From: Druceiella hillmani
Lineage: Eukaryota > Arthropoda > Insecta > Lepidoptera > Hepialidae
Reading direction: 5' to 3'
Length of the DNA stretch: 64,000 bases
Assembly (NCBI GenBank): GCA_039881145.1
Contig: JAYKKI010000016.1
Coordinates: 12,592,501-12,656,500 of the forward strand
Shown: positions 6,696-64,000 of the stretch, in pieces
How the letters are laid out: each line of letters begins with the position of its first letter
How positions within the stretch are numbered: the first letter of the stretch is position 1
Position numbers and translations under genes: made by a program
The notes under the pieces: model-generated
Told to the model about the DNA's origin: nothing
Databases searched by the model: none
What the model saw: the letters and a program-made list of their open reading frames with translations, nothing else

Positions 6696-9600
6696 TTCTT
6701 GTATTTTATTAATTTTATTATATCCCTTTAAATTATTTTTTCTCAAATATCTTCAATGTACACATAGGCCAATTCTAGTTTTATTATGTGTGTATGATAG
6801 ATTTATTTAAGTTGTTATCCATACATTAGAAATATTATATATAAATTGGTGGCCTCGTCCGCAGAAAATAATTATTGTACTATAAAATGTATTAGCGTAA
6901 CGTACAATGGATTCAAAATTCGGTTAAACCGTAAAAAACATGACATAGTGCAAAAATGTATTTTTTTTATTTAGTTTGTTTTCCTTCATAACAAGGTATT
7001 TACTTTAGACATGTTTTACTGTTCTATTTTTGATTTATTTAAGCAAATAAGAGAATAGTTATTTGAAGAAGATAGCCTTTATCATCATCATTTACCGAAC
7101 GCCATAATTACATTGTAGTTCCGTTTCTATACAGGTCTTAATAGTATAACGATTACAATGAGACCATAGGAAAAATTGTCTAAAAATGTATAAAATTTCG
7201 TCCAAATCGGGCTAATAATTCTCGCAGTAATAAAGGGACCTTCTTTAGAACATTCCAAGCATCATGCAAAAAGTTTCACAAGAACAGCCCAATGTTTCTC
7301 GAGATAATCAGGGACTATTTTTATTCGACTAAACGAATTTACGTATATTTTGAATATACTTAAAAAAAATCTTTAAAATATTTTATATTATAAGAACAAA
7401 TTGAATAAGGAATATATAATAAGTTGTATTCTTCCGTTAAACATTTTTTTTTTCTAAAATATGTTCAAAATGTTCTTACAATCTTATAATCGCTAATAGA
7501 CGACTTTCATTCACAGTGTACGGTTAAGTGTTAAACGAAAACCCATTTATTAACTGACAATGGACAAACGCCATGACTGCAACGTGTTAACCAAACTTTG
7601 AATTTATTTCTACCTTTACAAGATGTAAAGTAAAACTATTCCTTTTTTTTGAGTAAAGTTAAAGATAATTAAAGTAACGGCACGAATTTACTTTAACGCA
7701 TTTACCTTTATGTCTGAATAAAGATTCCACCCTTCTTACCGTCAGTTTTCTTTGCATTTTTTTAAACAAATACTGATGGTTAGAAAAGTAATAGAACATA
7801 ATTAAAATGCTAAATTGTAGCACGATATCTCATATTTAATTACGAATATGTAAATATTTTATTACGCGCAGTAATCATCATATCATCATCATATATATTA
7901 ATACGCTAAGGTTAGGATGTTACACTCCCTTTTTAGAAAAAACCTCACAACTAATCCACATAAATTATATATCATTTTATAGATAATTGCTTGCTCTACC
8001 GGCATCCACAACTAAAAAAATTATTATTGCTATTGTTTTTGCAAATTAATTAATTATTAAAATTATATACACAAAACAGCAATGCTGCCATCTAATGGCT
8101 CAACGTCAATATGATTGACAGTCGGTAAAATTTTTGTTTCATTTCAAATCGTATAAATAAAGTGGCGCTTTAGCTCAATGCTTTTGATACTTGCGCCTTT
8201 ATATGTAAATTTTAGTAAAATATTGGTTTGATCTGTCATCTGAGCTTCATAATGGAATAAATAATAATGCGAAGACTTCGCACGGGTCACGGTAGTATTT
8301 ATAATAAAAAGGTAAAAACACAGCTTTTTTCGTGCGATTGGAGTCCAAAAATGTTTAATTAAATTTTGGTCTAAACGTTGGCAATGGCAGACAACAATTC
8401 GTTAAAGTTGAATGGGGAAGCGCAAACTAAAGTTAAGTGACTTAACACACTAGGAGGATATTATTTTTGTGTCATAAATTTAACTTATATATTATTATAA
8501 TATATAGGTCTATGTAGGAAGTACAAGAGAAATTAAAGAAAATGAATGAAAGCGATAAGATATTTCTATTTTTAGGCGAGACCAAAGTCATAATGGATTA
8601 CATAATCTTGATTAATTTATTTGCCACCATGCCACCACCACCATGCCATACCACCATCTCTATGCTTAATTTAAAAATGTTTGATCCTCCCATGTGTGAG
8701 ACTTTTAAGGTCAACCTTGTCCATTCTCATAATTTATTAAAACTGATCGAGAATGAGTGCTATCAACGTTTAATTGACTTAAAGTCGTAATTTCGTTTAC
8801 ATAAGATCACATAAAATATCCAATTATTTATTTCAAAATCTTGTAATCTAAGTTCTCGGTGATCTATGACACTGGGCATATTTCAAAGATATTGTTTTTT
8901 CGTCATCATTGACTTACTTCGTATATCTGTAGATACCAAAGTGACGTGACGTATTGCTTGACCGCTTAACTACTACTTATACCTTAGATTAAATTTCCAT
9001 TCATCCCAAACGTTGGTTACCTAACTTATTCGATATTAACAATGTTAAACAAGTCTACTATAACACCGTCTTTGTCCAATCGTGCGTACCCACCGTGGGC
9101 TGAATAAATAATGCGAAAAATAACATGACACGATTCGCATTTAACACGCGCGCAAACGTCAAACTTACATACGATCTGTTACATTATCGCTATTATACTT
9201 AATTGCAAACATATTTTACTTTGACAATTAAAATCAGTACGCAATAATGACATACTGAATAAAATATTCTCAGCAACGATTACAACCTTGAAAATTTGTC
9301 CCGCTTTTCGCAATAAGCGTATATTGGCGTGAATATCGCGCAAATATAAACTAATCGCGAGACTTGAACAAAAGCACCAAGCAAATATGTACAACGCAAG
9401 CTTCTCCGTCATACATATTAACCAATCGCTCCACTTAACGTCATCGCAACATTCTAACAGTTTGACTAAATTGCAAACATCATCATACCTCGCTTCAAAA
9501 CCACACGGCAGCATGAGAATTATGAAAGAACACAATATCTACTCACAATGGATACAATCCTCAGCGCTGTATGAGGGACAACTTTAATGATCGAGAGCCG

Positions 9601-11144: not shown

Positions 11145-11974
11145 CAAAATATTTTTTACGTAGTGATCGGAACGCACCCTGTTATCCCATTCACAGAGGA
11201 AACAACACAATTTCGTGTAGCCAGTTTGCAATCCTAAAATTAAAGCCACTACCTTTAAATCTGCACATATTTGCCACTTGTTTGTTTTGTTTTAAGTGGG
11301 CGCCGTATGCTACAGGCAAAGATTGAAATGTTACCGTTGTGGAGTAAAACTGCCTTTAAACTTCGATTTGAGCCATCAATAAACAATCTCCATTCTTCTG
11401 GCATGTTTGTGACTTAATGCTGACATTAATCCATCAATATTATTATAGAACTCTAATCAATCTTCTTTTGAATAAAAAGTAGCTAAAGAAATGTAGCGCG
11501 TCTGATGAGTTGTAAATTTAATGTCATTCTGCAAAAAATTCCATTGTTTTAATCTCGAACCTAATATTTCTGATTTTTCTTTGATCAAATCTAAATCTCT
11601 GTTAGTACTCATTGAATAATCAAATGTGGTTTTGTAATTGTTTCATCTCGAAATACCTCTCCACTAGAAGGGCCTGCTTCGCTCTTTTCTATCATAGAAC
11701 TCGATGAACTCAACGAATTGGAAAATATTTCCGGTTCTGGAATGTCTGGAGAATAAGCTAATGGTATTGACACTGATGACACATTAGCATATTTCACTGA
11801 GTGTTTTGATTTGTTTTGGAAAACCCAAGTTGACAAAGAGAAGTAACAGTCGTCCACGTGATTTTTGGGTTCACGCCACTGCACTGGTACACCAAAATGC
11901 ATCTGTTTTACCATACCCTTGTGACATCCCGTCAAATATTGATAGCACTTTAAACAACACTCTCTAGGCACCAA
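11145..11974 (-). pseudogene. decayed multicopy arthropod protein gene, family function unknown
   Basis: Translation of the minus strand gives a cysteine-containing N-terminal part (VPRECCLKCYQYLTG, then MHFGVPVQWREP, then DCYF) as a 121-codon open frame (11974-11609). After a stop the similarity continues with SEILGSRLKQWNFLQ, EEWRLFIDGSNRSLKAVLL, and CCFLCEWDNR near 11180, but with stops and frame changes. I recognise these blocks as a large 'uncharacterised' protein family present in many copies in arthropod and some other animal genomes, often behaving like transposon-borne genes. Its biochemical role is not known to me. This copy is broken and truncated: the C-terminal half after the CxxCEWD block is missing and replaced by the dispersed repeat at 11068-11144. 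Confidence 0.75.
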
Positions 11975-33085: not shown

Positions 33086-33095
33086 GTGCCATATT

Positions 33096-33889
33096 TATTT
33101 CTTTCATTAGTCCGTGGGTTGAATTAATGTGTTAATAGTAGAAAATGACTTTCCTTAAAATCCCGGACAAATTTAAAAATCTCCCGGATGGCTCTTTTAA
33201 AAAGATAACAGTGTCCGGGAAAAAGAGGACGAATGGCATCGCTACATATAGTTATTTCTTTCATTAGTCTGTAGATAAAATTAACGTGTTAATAGTAGAA
33301 AAGTGCTTTCCTTAAAACCCCGGACAAATTTAAAAAATCTTCTGGATGGCTTTTTTAAAAAGAGAACAGTGTCCGGGGAAAAGAGGACGAATGGCTTCCC
33401 TATATATAGTTATTTCTTGCATTAGTCGGTGGATTAAATTAACGTGTTAATAGTAGAAAAGTGCTTTCCTTAAAACCCCGGACAAATTTAAAAAATCTTC
33501 TGGATGGCTTTTTTAAAAAGAGAACAGTGTCCGGGGAAAAGAGGACGAATGGCTTCCCTACATATAGTTATTTCTTGCATTAGTCCGTGGATTAAATTAA
33601 CGTGTTAATAGTAGAAAGGTGATATCCTTAAAACCCCGGACAAATTTTAAAAAATCTCCCGGATGGCTCTTTTAAAAAGGGAACAGAGTCCGGGACAAAG
33701 AGGACGAATGGCTTCCCTACATATAGTTATTTCTTGCATTAGTCCGTGGATTAAATTAACGTGTTAATAGTAGAAAGGTGCTATCCTTAAAACCCCGGAC
33801 AAATTTTAAAAAATCTCCCGGATGGCTCTTTTAAAAAGGGAACAGAGTCCGGGGCAAAGAGGACGAATGGCATCGCTACATATCATGCA
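33096..33889. repeat. tandem array of five ~158-bp units with internal stem
   Basis: Units starting 'tatttctt' at 33096, 33253, 33411, 33569 and 33728 (spacings 157-159). Each contains 'ccccggac' about 60 bp before 'gtccgggg', able to form a GC-rich stem, and the constant block 'agaggacgaatggc'. Units 2 and 3 are almost identical, as are units 4 and 5, indicating amplification in blocks. No ORF is shared by all units. Confidence 0.95.
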
Positions 33890-41343: not shown

Positions 41344-41514
41344 TTCACAATTAAATGAAACTACGTGATGTAGTATTATTTCTACTTTATTTATGTTCTT
41401 TAGTTCTAAAGAACTTAAAGAAAGTAGAAATAATACTACATCACGTAGTTTCATTTAATTGTGAATAATGAATTTCTACAAAATTAACGCCAAATATATT
41501 CAATAAACATTTTG
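41344..41514 (-). mobile_element. ribozyme-less foldback relative of the hammerhead element
   Basis: Arms of about 57 bp ('cacaattaaatgaaactacg', 'tgatgtagtattatttctac') meet at 'agttctaaagaactt', forming a nearly perfect hairpin at 41344-41465. The right side continues into 'tctacaaaattaacgccaaa' and 'tatattcaataaacattttg', the outer flank shared with 57258, 63112 (inverted) and 42820. Compared with the 57.3 kb copy the whole centre with the hammerhead motifs is deleted. Confidence 0.85.
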
Positions 41515-42819: not shown

Positions 42820-42866
42820 AATTTCTACAAAATTAACGCCAAATATATTCAATAAACATTTTGTTT
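42820..42866 (-). mobile_element. solo outer end of the foldback family
   Basis: Only the outer flank 'atttctacaaaattaacgcc' plus 'aaatatattcaataaacatt' is present, identical to the end of the 41344-41514 copy. No arm follows, so it is an end fragment or the insertion site of a shorter element. Confidence 0.8.
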
Positions 42867-44242: not shown

Positions 44243-44694
44243 CCTACCTTCTCTTATATTCCAGATGTTCGAAAATTTTGTTCTATTAACTCTTAAAATG
44301 GCCTTGCAAGTTTTTTTTTTAATAAATTACACAAGCTATCACCACTATGGTTCCGCAATGAATTGAAAATACAGAACACATGTCCTTTAAAATGCCTACC
44401 TTCTCTTATATTCCAGATGGTCGAAAATGTTATTCTATAAACTCTTAAAATGACCTTGCAAGTTTTTTTTAATAAATTAGACAAGCTATCACCACTATGG
44501 TTCCGCGATGAATTGAAAATACAGAACACATGTAATTTAAAATGCCTACATTCTCTTATATTCCAGATAGTCGAAAATTTTATTCTATAAACTCTTAAAA
44601 TGGCCTTGCAACTTTTTTTTTAATAAATTAGACAAGCTATCACCACTATCGTTCCGCGATGAATTGAAAATACAGAACACATGTCCTTTAAAAT
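44243..44694. repeat. tandem array, ~150-bp unit, three copies
   Basis: Units start 'cctac(c/a)ttctcttatattcc' at 44243, 44395 and 44545, and end 'tgaattgaaaatacagaaca' plus 'catgt'. They differ by a few substitutions. The minus-strand 78-codon ORF here is a repeat artefact. Confidence 0.95.
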
Positions 44695-52194: not shown

Positions 52195-52765
52195 GTCACA
52201 CAGTTTAACACAGAAACTTGAAATTTGGTTCAGTGATAAAGCAATATTGAGTCGCATATATTTAGTAATTGACACTCAAAAATGTTTATATAACAATTTT
52301 ATAAGGGGCAAAGTAATCGATTTTTTTTTAAATTTCACAATCGTTATGCTCAGAAACCATATGATACAGAAACTTGAAATTTGGTGCACTGATAAAGCAA
52401 TATTAACCCACATATATTTAGTAATTGACACTCAAAAATGTTTATATTACAATTTTATAAGGGGCAAAGTAATCGATTATTTTTTAAATTTCACGATCGT
52501 TATGCTCAGAAACCATATGATACAGAAACTTGAAATTTGGTGCACCGATAAAGCAATATTAACCCACATATATTTAGTAATTGACACTCAAAAATGTTTA
52601 TATTACAATTTTATAAGGGGCAAAGTAATCGATTTTTTTATATATGGCACAGAAATTTGAAATTTGGCACGGTGATGAAGCATATTAATCCATATATAAT
52701 TGAGATGTTCACATTCAAAAATACGTATATAAAAATTTTAATGAAGGCAAATCCCTTAAACTTTT
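52195..52765. repeat. tandem array, 156-bp unit (52 codons), about 3.6 copies
   Basis: Units start 'cagaaacttgaaatttgg' at 52211, 52367, 52523 and a degenerate one at 52649. The first three are exactly 156 bp apart, a multiple of three, so a 161-codon frame (52175-52660) stays open and appears to encode a 52-residue repeat (KLEIWCTDKAIL..IYLVIDTQKCLY). This is most simply a by-product of the period: composition is AT-driven and no homologous protein is known to me. The motif 'acttgaaatttggcac' is common in lepidopteran repeats. Confidence 0.9.
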
Positions 52766-53632
52766 TTTTTTCAAATTTCATACATCGTGTCGGTGTCAAT
52801 TAAAAGAGAAAGTTATAAGGTTTCTAAAAATTTTCCAGAATGTTTATCAATCCACAATATCGATGAATTTTCCACAATCTCAGAAACGGTTAGTAAAATT
52901 TTTTAAAAAACAGATTTATTAAATTTCATAGTTTTTTTTTCAGAAATTCACGATATTTTACCCCTGTGACAGTTTTGCTTAGCAATATAGTTATACTGTG
53001 AAAAACAGCATTAACTTTTGAAAATAGTCTACATAGATATACTGTGTACTCTTAAACGCGTATGTATATGTATCCGAGTGTACAGAACTCTAATAATGCC
53101 AGTTCTACTCATCATAGTATCAAAAGTTTAAGAGATTTTAGTTCCAAGAAAGCACCAAGCTCCTCATCTACCTTTCAAACGTACATACGGTTCTATTCAC
53201 TTTACTATTCCTCACGATATCGTAGAATATACAATAACATAATTTTATTAACTTAAAGCCTTACTTTTAACACCTCTATAAAGTATCACTCTGTGTCAAA
53301 AAGAGATTAAGAAAAAATATAACCATTTTAATATTCTGTAATTATGTGTGCACAAAGTGTGCTATAATGAGAAGCTATAAAACATTTTCATCTAGTTATA
53401 GTCATTCAAAAATTTGTTCTTTTCCAAATTGTCGACTTTTTTCAACTTTTTTATGTGTTTTACTAGTCTATTTAACTTTATACACATATTTACAAAATAT
53501 GAAAACTGATGATATTTCAGTTTTACATCTTTTTTCGAAGGAATTTCCACCGTTTATTTTCAAAAAAAAATTGGGACCTTTTTTGTAGAAAATATAGATA
53601 TAACTTAAAGCCTTATTTTTAACATCCTATAT

Positions 53633-54855
53633 AAAGTATTACTCTGTGTCAAAAAGAGATTGGAAAAGAAAATAACCAATTAGCAAACATAAATAAATAT
53701 TTCGCAAATTGTTCCACGGAGGATTGCCAACTGGCTTCTAGTTATAATACACGCACGTATAAGAAGCGGCTCGAAAGAGGGACGATAAAGTATTACTCTG
53801 TGTCAAAAACAGATTGGGAAAGAATATAACCAATTAGCAAACATAAATAAATATTTCGCAAATTGTTCAACGGAAGATTCACAACAGAAGCCAGTTGTAA
53901 TAAACGCACGTATACGAAGCGGCTCGAAAGAGGAACGATAAAGTATTACTCTGTGTCAAAAAGAGATTGGGAAAGAATATAACCAATTACCAAACATAAA
54001 TAAATATTTCGCAAATTGTTCAACGGAAGATTCCCAACAGAAGCTAGTTGTAATACACGCACGTATAAGAAGCGGCTCGAAAGAGGGACAATAAAGTATT
54101 ACTCTGTGTCAAAAAGAGATTGGGAAAGAATATAACCAATTAGCAAACATAAATAAATATTTCGCAAATTGTTCAACGGAAGATTCCCAACAGAAGCTAG
54201 TTGTAATAAACGCACGTATAAGAAGCGGCTCGAAAGAGGGACGATAAAGTATTACTCTGTGTCAAAAAGAGATTGGGAAAGAATATAACCAATTACCAAA
54301 CATAAATAAATATTTCGCAAATTGTTCAACGGAAGATTCCCAACAGAAGCTAGTTGTAATACACGCACGTATAAGAAGCGGCTCGAAAGAGGGACAATAA
54401 AGTATTACTCTGTGTCAAAAAGAGATTGGGAAAGAATATAACCAATTAGCAAACATAAATAAATATTTCGCAAATTGTTCAACGGAAGATTCCCAACAGA
54501 AGCTAGTTGTAATAAACGCACGTATAAGAAGCGGCTCGAAAGAGGGACGATAAAGTATTACTCTGTGTCAAAAAGAGATTGGGAAAGAATATAACCAATT
54601 ACCAAACATAAATAAATATTTCGCAAATTGTTCAACGGAAGATTCCCAACAGAAGCTAGTTGTAATACACGCACGTATAAGAAGCGGCTCGAAAGAGGGA
54701 CAATAAAGTATTACTCTGTGTCAAAAAGAGATTGGGAAAGAATATAACCAATTAGCAAACATAAATAAATATTTCGCAAATTGTTCAACGGAAGATTCCC
54801 AACAGAAGCTAGTTGTAATAAACGCACGTATAAGAAGCGGCTCGAAAGAGGGACG
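53633..54855. repeat. 153-bp satellite, eight units, last six in ABABAB order
   Basis: Units begin 'aaagtattactctgtgtcaa' at 53633, 53787, 53940, 54093, 54246, 54399, 54552 and 54705. From 53940 on, two unit types alternate: A ('attaccaaac', 'taatacacg', 'gggacaat') and B ('attagcaaac', 'taataaacg', 'gggacgat'), giving three near-identical 306-bp dimers. The first two units are more diverged, as expected at an array edge. Each unit has 'cgtataagaagcggctcgaa'. Confidence 0.97.
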
Positions 54856-55629: not shown

Positions 55630-56477
55630 ATTATTGCCCTACGGAAAAACCATTGAATAATAAAGAAATGCTACGGAATTTCTGAATCATTTGTACAACT
55701 ACGTTTCATAAAATTTTACAAAAACAGCTCCAAAACTATATGTATATAAATTCACAGTGTGTCACAGTTCAAACTTCGAATTGATAAAATTCAATTCCGA
55801 ACATACCTTATTGTATAAAGATTAACTAGCTGTGCGTTACTTTTCCCCTATGGATAAACCATTAAATAATACAGGAACGCTACGTAATTTTTAAAATCAT
55901 TTTTACAACTATATTTCATAAAATTTCACAAAAACAGCTCCAAAACTATATGTATATATAAATTCACAGCGTGTCACTATCCAACTTCGAAATGAAAAAA
56001 TTCAATTCCGAACATAATTTATTACGTAGAGATTAACTAGCTGTGCGTTACTTTTGCCATATGGATAAACTATTGAATAATACAGGAATGCTACGGAATT
56101 TTTAAATCATTTTTACAACTACATTTCATAAAATTTCACAAAAACAGCTCCAATACTATATGTATATAAATTCACAGCGTGTCAAAATCCAAACTTCGAA
56201 ATGATAAAATTCAATTCCGAACATACCTTATTTTATATAGAGACTAACTAGCTGTGCGTTACTTTTGCCCTATGGATAAACCATTAAATAATACAAGAAC
56301 GCTACGGAATTTTTAAATCATTTTTACAACTACATTTCATAAAATTTCACAAAAACAGCTCCAATACTATATGTATATAAATTCACAGCCTGTCACAATT
56401 CAAACTTCGAATTGATAAAATTAAATTCCAAACATACCTTATTATCTATATAATATTAGATTAACTAGCTGTGCTAT
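55630..56477. repeat. tandem array, ~210-bp unit, four copies
   Basis: Units containing 'aaaaccattgaataata', 'ttcataaaatttcacaaaaa', 'cagctccaaaactatatgta' and 'gattaactagctgtgcgtta' start near 55638, 55847, 56059 and 56268. Each ends with 'aactagctgtgcgttac', which resembles the 'actagctgaccc' end of RTE-like elements, so the array may have grown from tandem non-LTR tails. Confidence 0.94.
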
Positions 56478-57257: not shown

Positions 57258-57354
57258 TTGAATATATTTGGCGTTAATTTTGTATAAATTCATTATTCAC
57301 AATTAAATGAAACTACGTGATGTAGTATTATTTCTACTTTCTTTAAGTTCTTTG

Positions 57355-57395
57355 CCACGACCTAGGTTTCGTTGTATTATAACATCATCAGGTGG
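57355..57395 (-). ncRNA. hammerhead ribozyme, left arm
   Basis: Minus-strand reading: stem I CCAC (57395-57392) pairs with GTGG (57358-57355); core CTGATGA at 57391-57385; one extra U; stem II GTTAT/ACAAC with one mismatch and loop AAT; conserved GAA (57370-57368); stem III ACC/GGT with a 2-nt loop; predicted cleavage after C at 57359. All invariant core positions are present. The very short stem III is like that of the minimal hammerheads of retroelements, which tend to work as dimers. The unpaired U between CTGATGA and stem II is unusual but similar single insertions are known in natural hammerheads. Confidence 0.75.
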
Positions 57396-57428
57396 GCTAT
57401 TAGCAATGATACATATCTTACTAATAGC

Positions 57429-57469
57429 CCACCTGAAGATGTTGTAATACAACGAAACCTAGGTCGTGT
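57429..57469 (+). ncRNA. hammerhead ribozyme, right arm
   Basis: Plus-strand reading: stem I CCAC (57429-57432) against GTGT (57466-57469), three of four pairs; core CTGAAGA at 57433-57439 (the variable seventh core base is A); extra U; perfect stem II GTTGT/ACAAC (57441-57445/57449-57453) with loop AAT; GAA at 57454-57456; stem III ACC/GGT with loop TA; cleavage expected after C at 57465. It faces away from its partner in the left arm. Confidence 0.72.
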
Positions 57470-57531
57470 AAAGAACTTAAAGACAGTAGAAATAATACTA
57501 AATCACGTAGTTTTATTTAATTGTGAATAAT

Positions 57532-61375: not shown

Positions 61376-63111
61376 CCGATATATATTAATGAAATGAGCG
61401 TAGCCAAAAGTGAAGTGTGGAAATATAATTAAAAAAACGGAAGCCACGAGGACAACTACTATAGTAAATCGACCTGCATGAGGATTATCGCAGATCAAAA
61501 TCCTTCTTTAGATCATTAGAGCCAATGTTTGACTGTATCATTGGAGAATACACCTTCACCCGTCGTTAGGCATGTATTGTATGTTGTTTCGCCCACGTAT
61601 CGCTACGTGAGATTTCATGAACCAAAAGCACTCTAAGTTCTCTCCGTGAAATTTATATATTTTGTTTGTCCTTTATTGGTCGAAACTCAACTGCTAAATG
61701 AACTGAAAATCGAATCCCGCGATCTTTACATACTCTACCAGAGATGTTCGGAAATTATCTAAACGTTCCAGAAATTTTGTGGGAATTATTGGAAAAAAGT
61801 GACAGGTTTCATAGTTACCAACTTAGTGCATCGATGTCCCAGAAACTAATAACAAGCATTCATATTAAAGAAAATCCATGAAAATAAAACTACTCGTATT
61901 TTAACCATATCGACTTGCAACTACACACATCACTTGAATCGTTATACGTAATGTCAAACAAGGCAATCAACAATATTTCTACAGGCTACCATTCCAATCC
62001 CGGTCATCGATGCGAACTACATACAATCTAATTAATGACAGCGAATTTAAATTGTTAAACTCGAGACTCGCTCGCTCTATTTGGAATTAGAAAACGTACT
62101 TTCTTGATTAACTTCAAGTGCGACTAAGAAACATTATCAAAATCATTTTATTAGGAATACATAACAATAAAAAAAGCAAATATAAAAAACGATTAAGCAC
62201 GAATGAATTCGCATGCCGAAATTTTTCGCAAATAAAGGCTGTTTATTAATAAAAAAAAGATAAAATATGTTTCTTGATATGCATTAAATCAACAAAGGAT
62301 TCTTAGGTTGTTAAAGAAGTTCAAAATGACCTGAAATATTCGTACTTTCTGCTATTTCAAATGATTTCCTCTAATTCTATCCTTCTCCATATTCCAGATC
62401 GTTTTTTTATCGAATTGTTATGCAAATTATGGTAGTATTAATATAGAAAATTCAACAGTATTAATACGCAAAATATATTTTGTAAACTTACTAGATTGGC
62501 ACCAGTTTTATCAAATTTTATCGGGTATTAACTCATTAAGAAAACTCATACCTATACTAAATTTCGTAAATCAATGCCCGGCGCGATGGCTTGTGAAAAA
62601 ACCGGAATCTTTTTCCTTGTATCTTATCGAGAAATAGAATCTCTGTTTTTTACCTATTAAAACATGGAATTTTACAAATTATTACCAAACTGTTAATAAA
62701 GCTTTAATAGTCAAGAGTGAAAAGACTTTTTGAATTCCTATTGAAGTACAAAACGAAAATAAAATATACTATTTGCCTTTATTATGGAGAAATAATTAAA
62801 TATTCAATAAAAACATTTTTTTACTTTCAACATTTTTTCAACAATAATTACATTCAAACGTTTCATTATTATAAACAAAGCCTCCATGTAGAATAATTTA
62901 AGAATAACAATGAATAACTAGCATAATATATTTTTCTTTTTACGAAATAATACGTACCTATATTGCTCACTATTCAAGGTGTTATGTGCGTCGCGTTGTA
63001 TAGACGATGATGCCACGCGGCGCTCGGCTTGCGTATTCCGCAAGACTTATAAACACTTGTTAATAGTGTAGTGCAAAAACAGGATAAGATACGGAAAAAA
63101 TCATCTTATTT
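61376..63111. other. AT-rich DNA, no supported gene
   Basis: 'aaaatcgaatcccgcgatct' near 61706 is B-box-like, but no tRNA or SINE can be folded. A CpG-rich short stretch at 62985-63045 has no clear role. Confidence 0.4.
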
Positions 63112-63275
63112 TGAATATATTTGGCGTTAATTTTGTAGAAATTCATTATTTACAATTAAATGAAACTATGTGATGTAGTATTATTTCTACTTTATTTAAA
63201 TTCTTTACCACGACCTAGGTTTCGTTAGTATTACAACATCTTCAGGTGGGCAATTAGCAAAGATTCTTAGCTAAT
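63112..63275. mobile_element. truncated copy of the hammerhead foldback element
   Basis: Outer flank and the whole left arm of the 57.3 kb element are present ('ttgaatatatttggcgttaa', 'gaaactatgtgatgtagtat', 'ccacgacctaggtttcgtta'), about 93% identical. The right arm is lost except for a possible 'gctaattag' trace at 63271. It is followed directly by the pseudogene. Confidence 0.82.
63208..63249 (-). ncRNA. hammerhead ribozyme in truncated element
   Basis: Minus strand: stem I CCAC (63249-63246)/GTGG (63211-63208), fully paired; CTGAAGA (63245-63239); extra U; stem II GTTG/TAAC (three Watson-Crick pairs plus one G-U); GAA; stem III ACC/GGT; C17 at 63212. The compensated stem I and conserved core agree with the two motifs at 57.3-57.5 kb, while the stem II loop is longer. 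Confidence 0.7.
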
Positions 63276-63279
63276 TAGT

Positions 63280-64000
63280 ATCATATCGAACTCCCATAAA
63301 TGAATCGCCTACTAACAAATCAGTAGTTTTGAAAACCATGAAACAAAGCCAAACAAATTGTAAAGAAGTTGAGCAGTCTTCCATCCAAGTCACTTATGAT
63401 CTTACTATTGCAAAAGTATCCCTATAAAATAAAGCAAGCCACAAATCAGATCTTGATAATTTATACATTTGGGGCCTTTTCATATAACGATGGCTTACTT
63501 CAAAACTGTAGGCAAAGTTATAATGGATTGTGGCTTAACTAATATTATGGTAGAGTAATTTATAAGCTTCGGGCTCCATAAGTGGATTTCTCAAGGGAAA
63601 TCACTTCAATGGGTGTAAGAGACTTCATCCCTTATGGCTGTGGTGTTGGAAATTTAACATTTTAATTTTTTTGGAAGTTAATAAACAGTGGTCACAGATC
63701 AAATGGTTGAACAAATTGCACGACTAAAAATTTCTTCAATATCTTCATTTACATTTGAGAATGAAGAACTTAATGAGTTATTAAACAACTATAATATTTA
63801 TAAGTTGCAAACTCTCAATGGCGAGTTTGGTAAAACATCACAGTTTTATTTAATTTATATTAATCTTGTTCATTATTATCCTACTTTATCAAGAAGCGAC
63901 CGCACTGGAGATTTTGAATTATTTAAATTTGTGCTGCCGAAAATTACAATTTAATCAATTTATCAATACATTTAACGCTGAAGTACCTAAAGATCTCTTA
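63280..64000 (+). pseudogene. decayed multicopy arthropod protein gene, partial at window end
   Basis: Plus-strand translation with stops and frameshifts reads QSSIQVTYDLTIAKVSL, then FIHLGPFHITMAYFKTVGKV, MDCGLTNIMVE, and, in an 88-codon open stretch (63688-63954), GEFGKTSQFYLIYINLVHYY, then LSRSDRTGDFELFKFVLPKI. These blocks belong to a protein family found as many 'uncharacterised' copies in arthropod genomes ('VTYDLAIAK', 'LGPFHIEMA', 'GKTAQFW..Y..MV', 'SIRTGDFELY...LPKI'); its function is not known to me. The reading frame from 63463 to 63954 is the same but carries at least five stops, and a shift follows 63954. The C-terminus is outside the window. Confidence 0.75.

Follow-up and report, generated by a model that had tools for sequence, protein, structure and literature searches.

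Why should two hammerhead-like ribozymes lie back to back in one short foldback? The question is raised by a locus in the genome of the lepidopteran Druceiella hillmani, where the stretch that we analyzed (64,000 nucleotides, hereafter the window) holds, at 57292-57531, a near-perfect inverted repeat around an 11-nt centre. Probably, this foldback is a solo head-to-head pair of pLTRs, the end repeats of a GIY-YIG Penelope-like element (PLE), in which case the back-to-back arrangement of the ribozymes would be a by-product of insertion. The parts of the locus and the other pieces of the same family in the window are:

57258..57293, minus strand: tail, on the left side only; the minus strand opens with ATG AAT and reads MNLYKINAKYIQ, the beginning of an open frame
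57292..57406, minus strand: left arm, a tailed pLTR in minus-strand reading
57355..57397, minus strand: left-arm hammerhead-like motif, cleavage expected after C 57359; here stem II contains a mismatch
57407..57417, no strand: centre of the palindrome, where the arms join; filler specific to this copy
57418..57531, plus strand: right arm, an untailed pLTR in plus-strand reading
57427..57469, plus strand: right-arm hammerhead-like motif, cleavage expected after C 57465; here stem I lacks one base
63111..63280, minus strand: second copy of the family, a single arm bearing tail and motif, with only a short remnant of the other arm
41344..41504, plus strand: third family copy, a foldback without hammerhead and with the tail on the right; both arms stop 4 nt before the cleavage site
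42820..42853, plus strand: fourth family piece, a tail alone

The inverted repeat reported in a preliminary description of this DNA is real and consists of two arm pairs, 57292-57353 with 57470-57531 (62 nt, 95% identity) and 57356-57406 with 57418-57468 (51 nt, 94% identity). The interval had been drawn from 57258 and takes in 57258-57293, the tail, found only on the left side. The flanks of this copy show no clear target duplication.

On the plus strand, the right arm carries CCAC-CUGAAGA-U-GUUGU-AAU-ACAAC-GAAA-CC-UA-GG-UC^GUG; the left arm, on the minus strand, carries CCAC-CUGAUGA-U-GUUAUAAUACAAC-GAAA-CCUAGG-UC^GUGG. The cleavage sites previously assigned to 57465 and 57359 agree with this motif. 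The claim that each arm holds a hammerhead stands for the motif, but less well for its structure, as there is an extra U after A9 and as we found a defect in each arm with a structural descriptor that combines the core with a stem I of at least 3 bp, a stem II of at least 4, a stem III of at least 3 with a loop of at least 2, and 0-1 nt after A9. The left arm fails this descriptor because its stem II has an A.C mismatch; in the right arm, stem I is short of one G, but the 3 bp that remain still pass. The descriptor matched twice in the window, at 57433-57465 on the plus strand and at 63245-63212 on the minus strand. Since 2632 windows simulated by a first-order model also gave only two matches (0.0008 per window), the motif exceeds chance. 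A simpler pattern, CTGANGAN{6,30}GAAAC, had six matches in the window, three of them in this pLTR family, where 0.33 were expected. As judged by a single regular expression, 61 of 80 family arms retain the core and the edge of stem I, and 23 of 40 copies do so in both arms.

Searches with covariance models, the check proposed in the preliminary description, yielded no Rfam match at the gathering threshold over the whole window, an outcome that the preliminary description had listed among those speaking against its claim. In a low-threshold Rfam search of 501 bases, Hammerhead_HH9 reached only 12.9 and 12.6 bits (threshold 52; E-values 4.5 and 5.5), and the rows for miRNA precursors stem from the long hairpin. 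With scores below the gathering threshold, we did not assign the motif to any Rfam hammerhead family. In the minimum-energy folds of the single strands, stem II is retained, while ACCUG pairs with UAGGU in place of the hammerhead (z −0.8 to −1.4), and a stem III of 3 bp with a 2-nt loop would hardly allow a closed monomer. The absence of Rfam matches at threshold, the folds disfavouring a monomeric hammerhead, the failure of the left arm at 57k to match the descriptor and the missing clear target duplication of this copy are among the points against our best explanation. The pLTR motif does fit the minimal core of PLE-type hammerheads, CUGANGA ... GAA ... UH with stems I and II, and self-cleavage is predicted from this fit. 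PLE hammerheads are minimal variants without helix III, according to two reviews (PMC6155905, PMC7761336), and the missing helix may explain why Rfam does not find them. A scan of viral contigs for the motif gave no matches.

In the genome (2.586 Gb, 181 contigs), a 283-nt query taken from the window copy yielded 3,715 candidates. The best 40 scored, a sample biased toward full, query-like copies, comprise the window copy and 39 foldbacks with 89-94% identity. All 40 parse into tail, pLTR, centre and inverted pLTR, with the tail on one arm, and the joint filler differs from copy to copy. Strings of at least 10 nt are common to both flanks in 33 of the 40 and are exactly 12 nt long in 17 (raw counts), suggesting target-site duplications in most sampled copies. 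The preliminary description had read the pairing of the arms as a switch or storage form; this reading is unsupported and not needed, each arm being a copy of the same pLTR, joined head to head at joints that differ between copies. An extrapolation to ~1e5 insertions, based on four more copies in the fetched flanks and four in the window, was too rough and was discarded.

The 80 arms diverge by about 4% from their consensus. At three subfamily sites, the two arms of a copy match in 36, 35 and 30 of 40 copies, where 19.6, 20.0 and 20.1 would be expected, and rare variants common to both arms of one copy number two, with a mean of 1.1 in shuffles. Variants specific to one arm (four sites with p<0.05 and two trends) were dropped, since the query carries such variants and choosing the best 40 by similarity can create them. 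At site 1 of the arm alignment (L001-L040), ATCATTGC replaces ATCTTTGC at the RNA 5' end, mostly in the tailed arm (11 vs 2), a bias that may derive from the choice of query.

The connection to PLEs, already suggested in the preliminary description, is borne out by one locus. A search of the genome for GIY-YIG proteins led to two places. In one of them, L043, a 121-aa frame matches the Pfam GIY-YIG family (PF01541, 34.5 bits, cut-off 22.6), with a tailed pLTR (91%) downstream of the frame and an inverted pLTR (87%) upstream, and the inverted repeat extends past the pLTR. We take this locus for a PLE copy, truncated at its 5' side, whose end shows the head-to-head arrangement of the foldbacks. 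The sequence immediately before its pLTR differs from the palindrome of the foldbacks, which therefore seems to have been created by the joint. An end repeat in common with a GIY-YIG-coding element, together with inverted pLTRs and one tail, identifies the foldback as a putative non-autonomous PLE pLTR copy, a link that rests on a single GIY-YIG-linked copy and the comparison of one of its frames with Pfam.

The pattern GGTGGGMTATTAGN{0,30}CTAATAKCCCACC occurs at 7,625 exact centres in the 2.59 Gb genome and its reversed control nowhere. Among the first 50 listed of these, ATCTTTG is fully kept in 65 of 100 arm ends, the fillers range from −2 to 19 nt, and the arms agree at the first subfamily site in 45 of 50. 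The inner end that the arms share most plausibly corresponds to where uncut RNA has its 5' end. In the copies L006, L026, L028 and L029, the filler repeats pieces of the arm ends (AGCAAAGAT, ATCTTTGC), a pattern suggestive of repeated switching by the polymerase in both directions.

The hammerhead-less copy at 41k prompted a second pattern, CTTTAAKTTCTTTN{0,24}AAAGAAMTTAAAG, which matched 257 places (reversed control 4). A similarity search with 41418-41502 of this copy as query returned no candidates, probably owing to the commonness of its words. In the first 50 of the 257 by contig order, with one mismatch allowed, the predicted bond, GGUC^GUGGUAAAG, is the exact end point of 35 of 100 arms, against 12 for the next position, and the longer arm ends at the bond in 22 of the 50. 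Were 17 positions equally likely, one chosen beforehand would collect at least 35 of the 100 with a probability of 2e-18, in a set whose arm ends are partly dependent, two pairs of the listed joints having identical filler. In 20 fetched loci, chosen mainly for exact ends and with L052 left out of parsing, there is one tail in all 20, and flanks of at least 11 nt are shared in 11. L048 (C3:62947837) and L049 (C1:615768) have identical filler with different targets and different flanking duplications, either by chance or by movement of the foldback as a unit.

An internal comparison is offered by asymmetric joints, in which one arm extends to the 5' end of the RNA while its partner goes at least as far as the bond. 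There are 996 of these (513 + 483; reversed control 0), and in 100 listed ones the short-arm ends span position 5 to 26. Only six of these 100 short arms are exact at the bond (10 without mismatch), in contrast to 35 among the 58 ends that reach the bond or pass it where both arms are short (Fisher p = 8e-14). As the peak is absent from asymmetric joints, it is not a preference that the enzyme or the local DNA has for this position, but appears when both templates end there. Mixed joints at the exact site would number about 60 (up to 100), against about 1,430 expected under independent cutting, an estimate scaled from the listed samples with patterns that are similar, not equal, in strictness. 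It thus looks as though in vivo cleavage by the hammerhead had been recorded in DNA through these joints, the two arms being alike in whether they come from cut or uncut RNA. We found no earlier report of joints at the cut site of a PLE hammerhead in the titles and abstract openings of the open-licence literature.

The explanation that we consider likely for all of this is the insertion of a solo head-to-head pLTR pair of a GIY-YIG PLE, with the site of the joint set by whether the RNA was cut. The PLE protein would cut both target strands, and two target-primed cDNAs would meet at the RNA 5' ends. An uncut RNA would place the joint at its own 5' end (ATCTTTGC..., as in the 57k copy) and leave a hammerhead in each arm; an RNA cut by the hammerhead would place it at the cleavage site, giving an insertion without ribozyme. 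The shared cut state could come from one RNA copied twice or from a double hammerhead on two RNAs. We put forward tentatively, and with somewhat less than even confidence, that the joints record cleavage in vivo, that the PLE hammerhead works as a double hammerhead across two RNAs in one RNP through its self-complementary CCUAGG stem III, and that the back-to-back arms are the imprint of the paired ribozymes. If the joints are a genomic record, the alternative to two RNAs is a single RNA that is copied twice. According to papers that cite it, Lunse et al. 2017 treated dimer action of PLE hammerheads; Cervera 2014 is likewise cited on minimal hammerheads of this kind.

The main competitor of insertion by two target-primed cDNAs is self-priming, which has been proposed for the head-to-head pLTRs and junction palindromes of the Penelope elements of Adineta vaga (PMC3846280). 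A single cDNA would reach the 5' end of the cut or uncut RNA, fold back and be copied, making the second arm a copy of the first. The shared cut state would follow directly, and so would the agreement of the arms at subfamily sites (36 and 35 of 40, and 45 of 50 in the uncut class). A copied cDNA should, however, bear a tail, and the second arm is untailed in the 40 parsed and 20 fetched copies, which disfavours simple self-priming. Furthermore, the inner arm lengths are unequal in the ~996 asymmetric joints, and the two arms disagree at subfamily sites in 4 of the 40 parsed copies and in 5 of the 50 listed ones, above what we would guess for single mutations. We therefore regard self-priming as unlikely.

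The peak at the bond can also be approached from the end of the template, since joints reveal where it ended and not how the end arose. The bond could by chance be the place of a further transcription start, or of an end that a different nuclease made in the RNA; this we hold for rather improbable, as the bond is the one predicted for the hammerhead and had been named in the preliminary description before any joint was examined. Long palindromes are prone to deletion of their tips, and the ribozyme-less class might have lost the hairpin tip after insertion, with which the target duplications are compatible. Deletion predicts scattered ends, yet 35 of 100 lie at one ribozyme-predicted bond; the asymmetric joints do scatter, and they have no peak (6 of 100 at the bond), so that a deletion origin seems very improbable. 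Least credible of all, to the point of being negligible, is a common DNA foldback (MITE) in which a hammerhead-like word arose by chance: the inverted repeat, the high copy number and the lack of an Rfam match would suit it, but the terminal inverted repeats are not symmetric, the tail being one-sided, and it leaves the link to a GIY-YIG PLE, the descriptor rate of 0.0008 per window and the arm ends at the predicted bond out of account.

Among known systems, the Penelope elements of Adineta vaga come closest in architecture. Their pLTRs are inverted, mostly head-to-head, with palindromes at the inverted junction, an optional tail of ~31 bp on one inverted pLTR and, in the cases quoted, target-site duplications of 8-10 bp (PMC3846280). 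Head-to-head pLTRs have thus been described before. The Adineta pairs mostly flank coding or captured DNA and have a low copy number; the Druceiella pair, unlike these, is coding-free and has thousands of exact centres, a hammerhead in the arm and a class of joints at the cleavage site.

In mechanism, the best comparison is PAc, a Poseidon PLE from Anolis (PMC11167929). Its protein cuts and extends both target strands, and reverse transcription starts inside the RNA at two sites that bound the tail. These features, with a hammerhead at the pLTR-ORF region, resemble the elements studied here. The PAc hammerhead cleaves only with the protein present; its mutants insert normally in vitro, the main template is the uncut RNA and there are no in vivo reads ending at the cut site, whereas a minority of the Druceiella joints lie exactly there. 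The small cut class seen here therefore agrees only partly with the anole PLE.

The minimal type I hammerheads of PLEs and Terminons share with our motif the minimal core and a very weak helix III, and action as a dimer has been proposed for them, as stated in three papers (PMC6155905, PMC7761336, PMC7229834); the back-to-back orientation in DNA and the extra U after A9 set the present motif apart. Metazoan retrozymes (PMC7229834) are likewise small non-coding elements with type I hammerheads, but occur as direct tandem repeats, many of them with a full hammerhead, and have circular RNA. Since all 40 copies that we parsed are inverted pairs and not direct tandem repeats, we rejected an assignment to retrozymes.

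In an assembled genome, head-to-head joints would show how many templates were cut and how many were not, with no need for RNA, and this tally could be repeated in any animal rich in PLE copies. From joints at the cleavage site, one could test in genomes whether PLE hammerheads are active in vivo. As to whether cutting is needed for insertion, the answer here seems to be mostly not, with 257 joints in the cut region against 7,625 exact joints of the uncut class.

The window also contains tandem arrays with periods of 150-211 bp (33091-33883, 44243-44694, 52210-52639, 53631-54855 and 55634-56445), which gave no Rfam hammerhead match at threshold. At 11612-11974 on its minus strand lies a 121-aa frame that presumably resembles uncharacterised repeated genes of arthropods.
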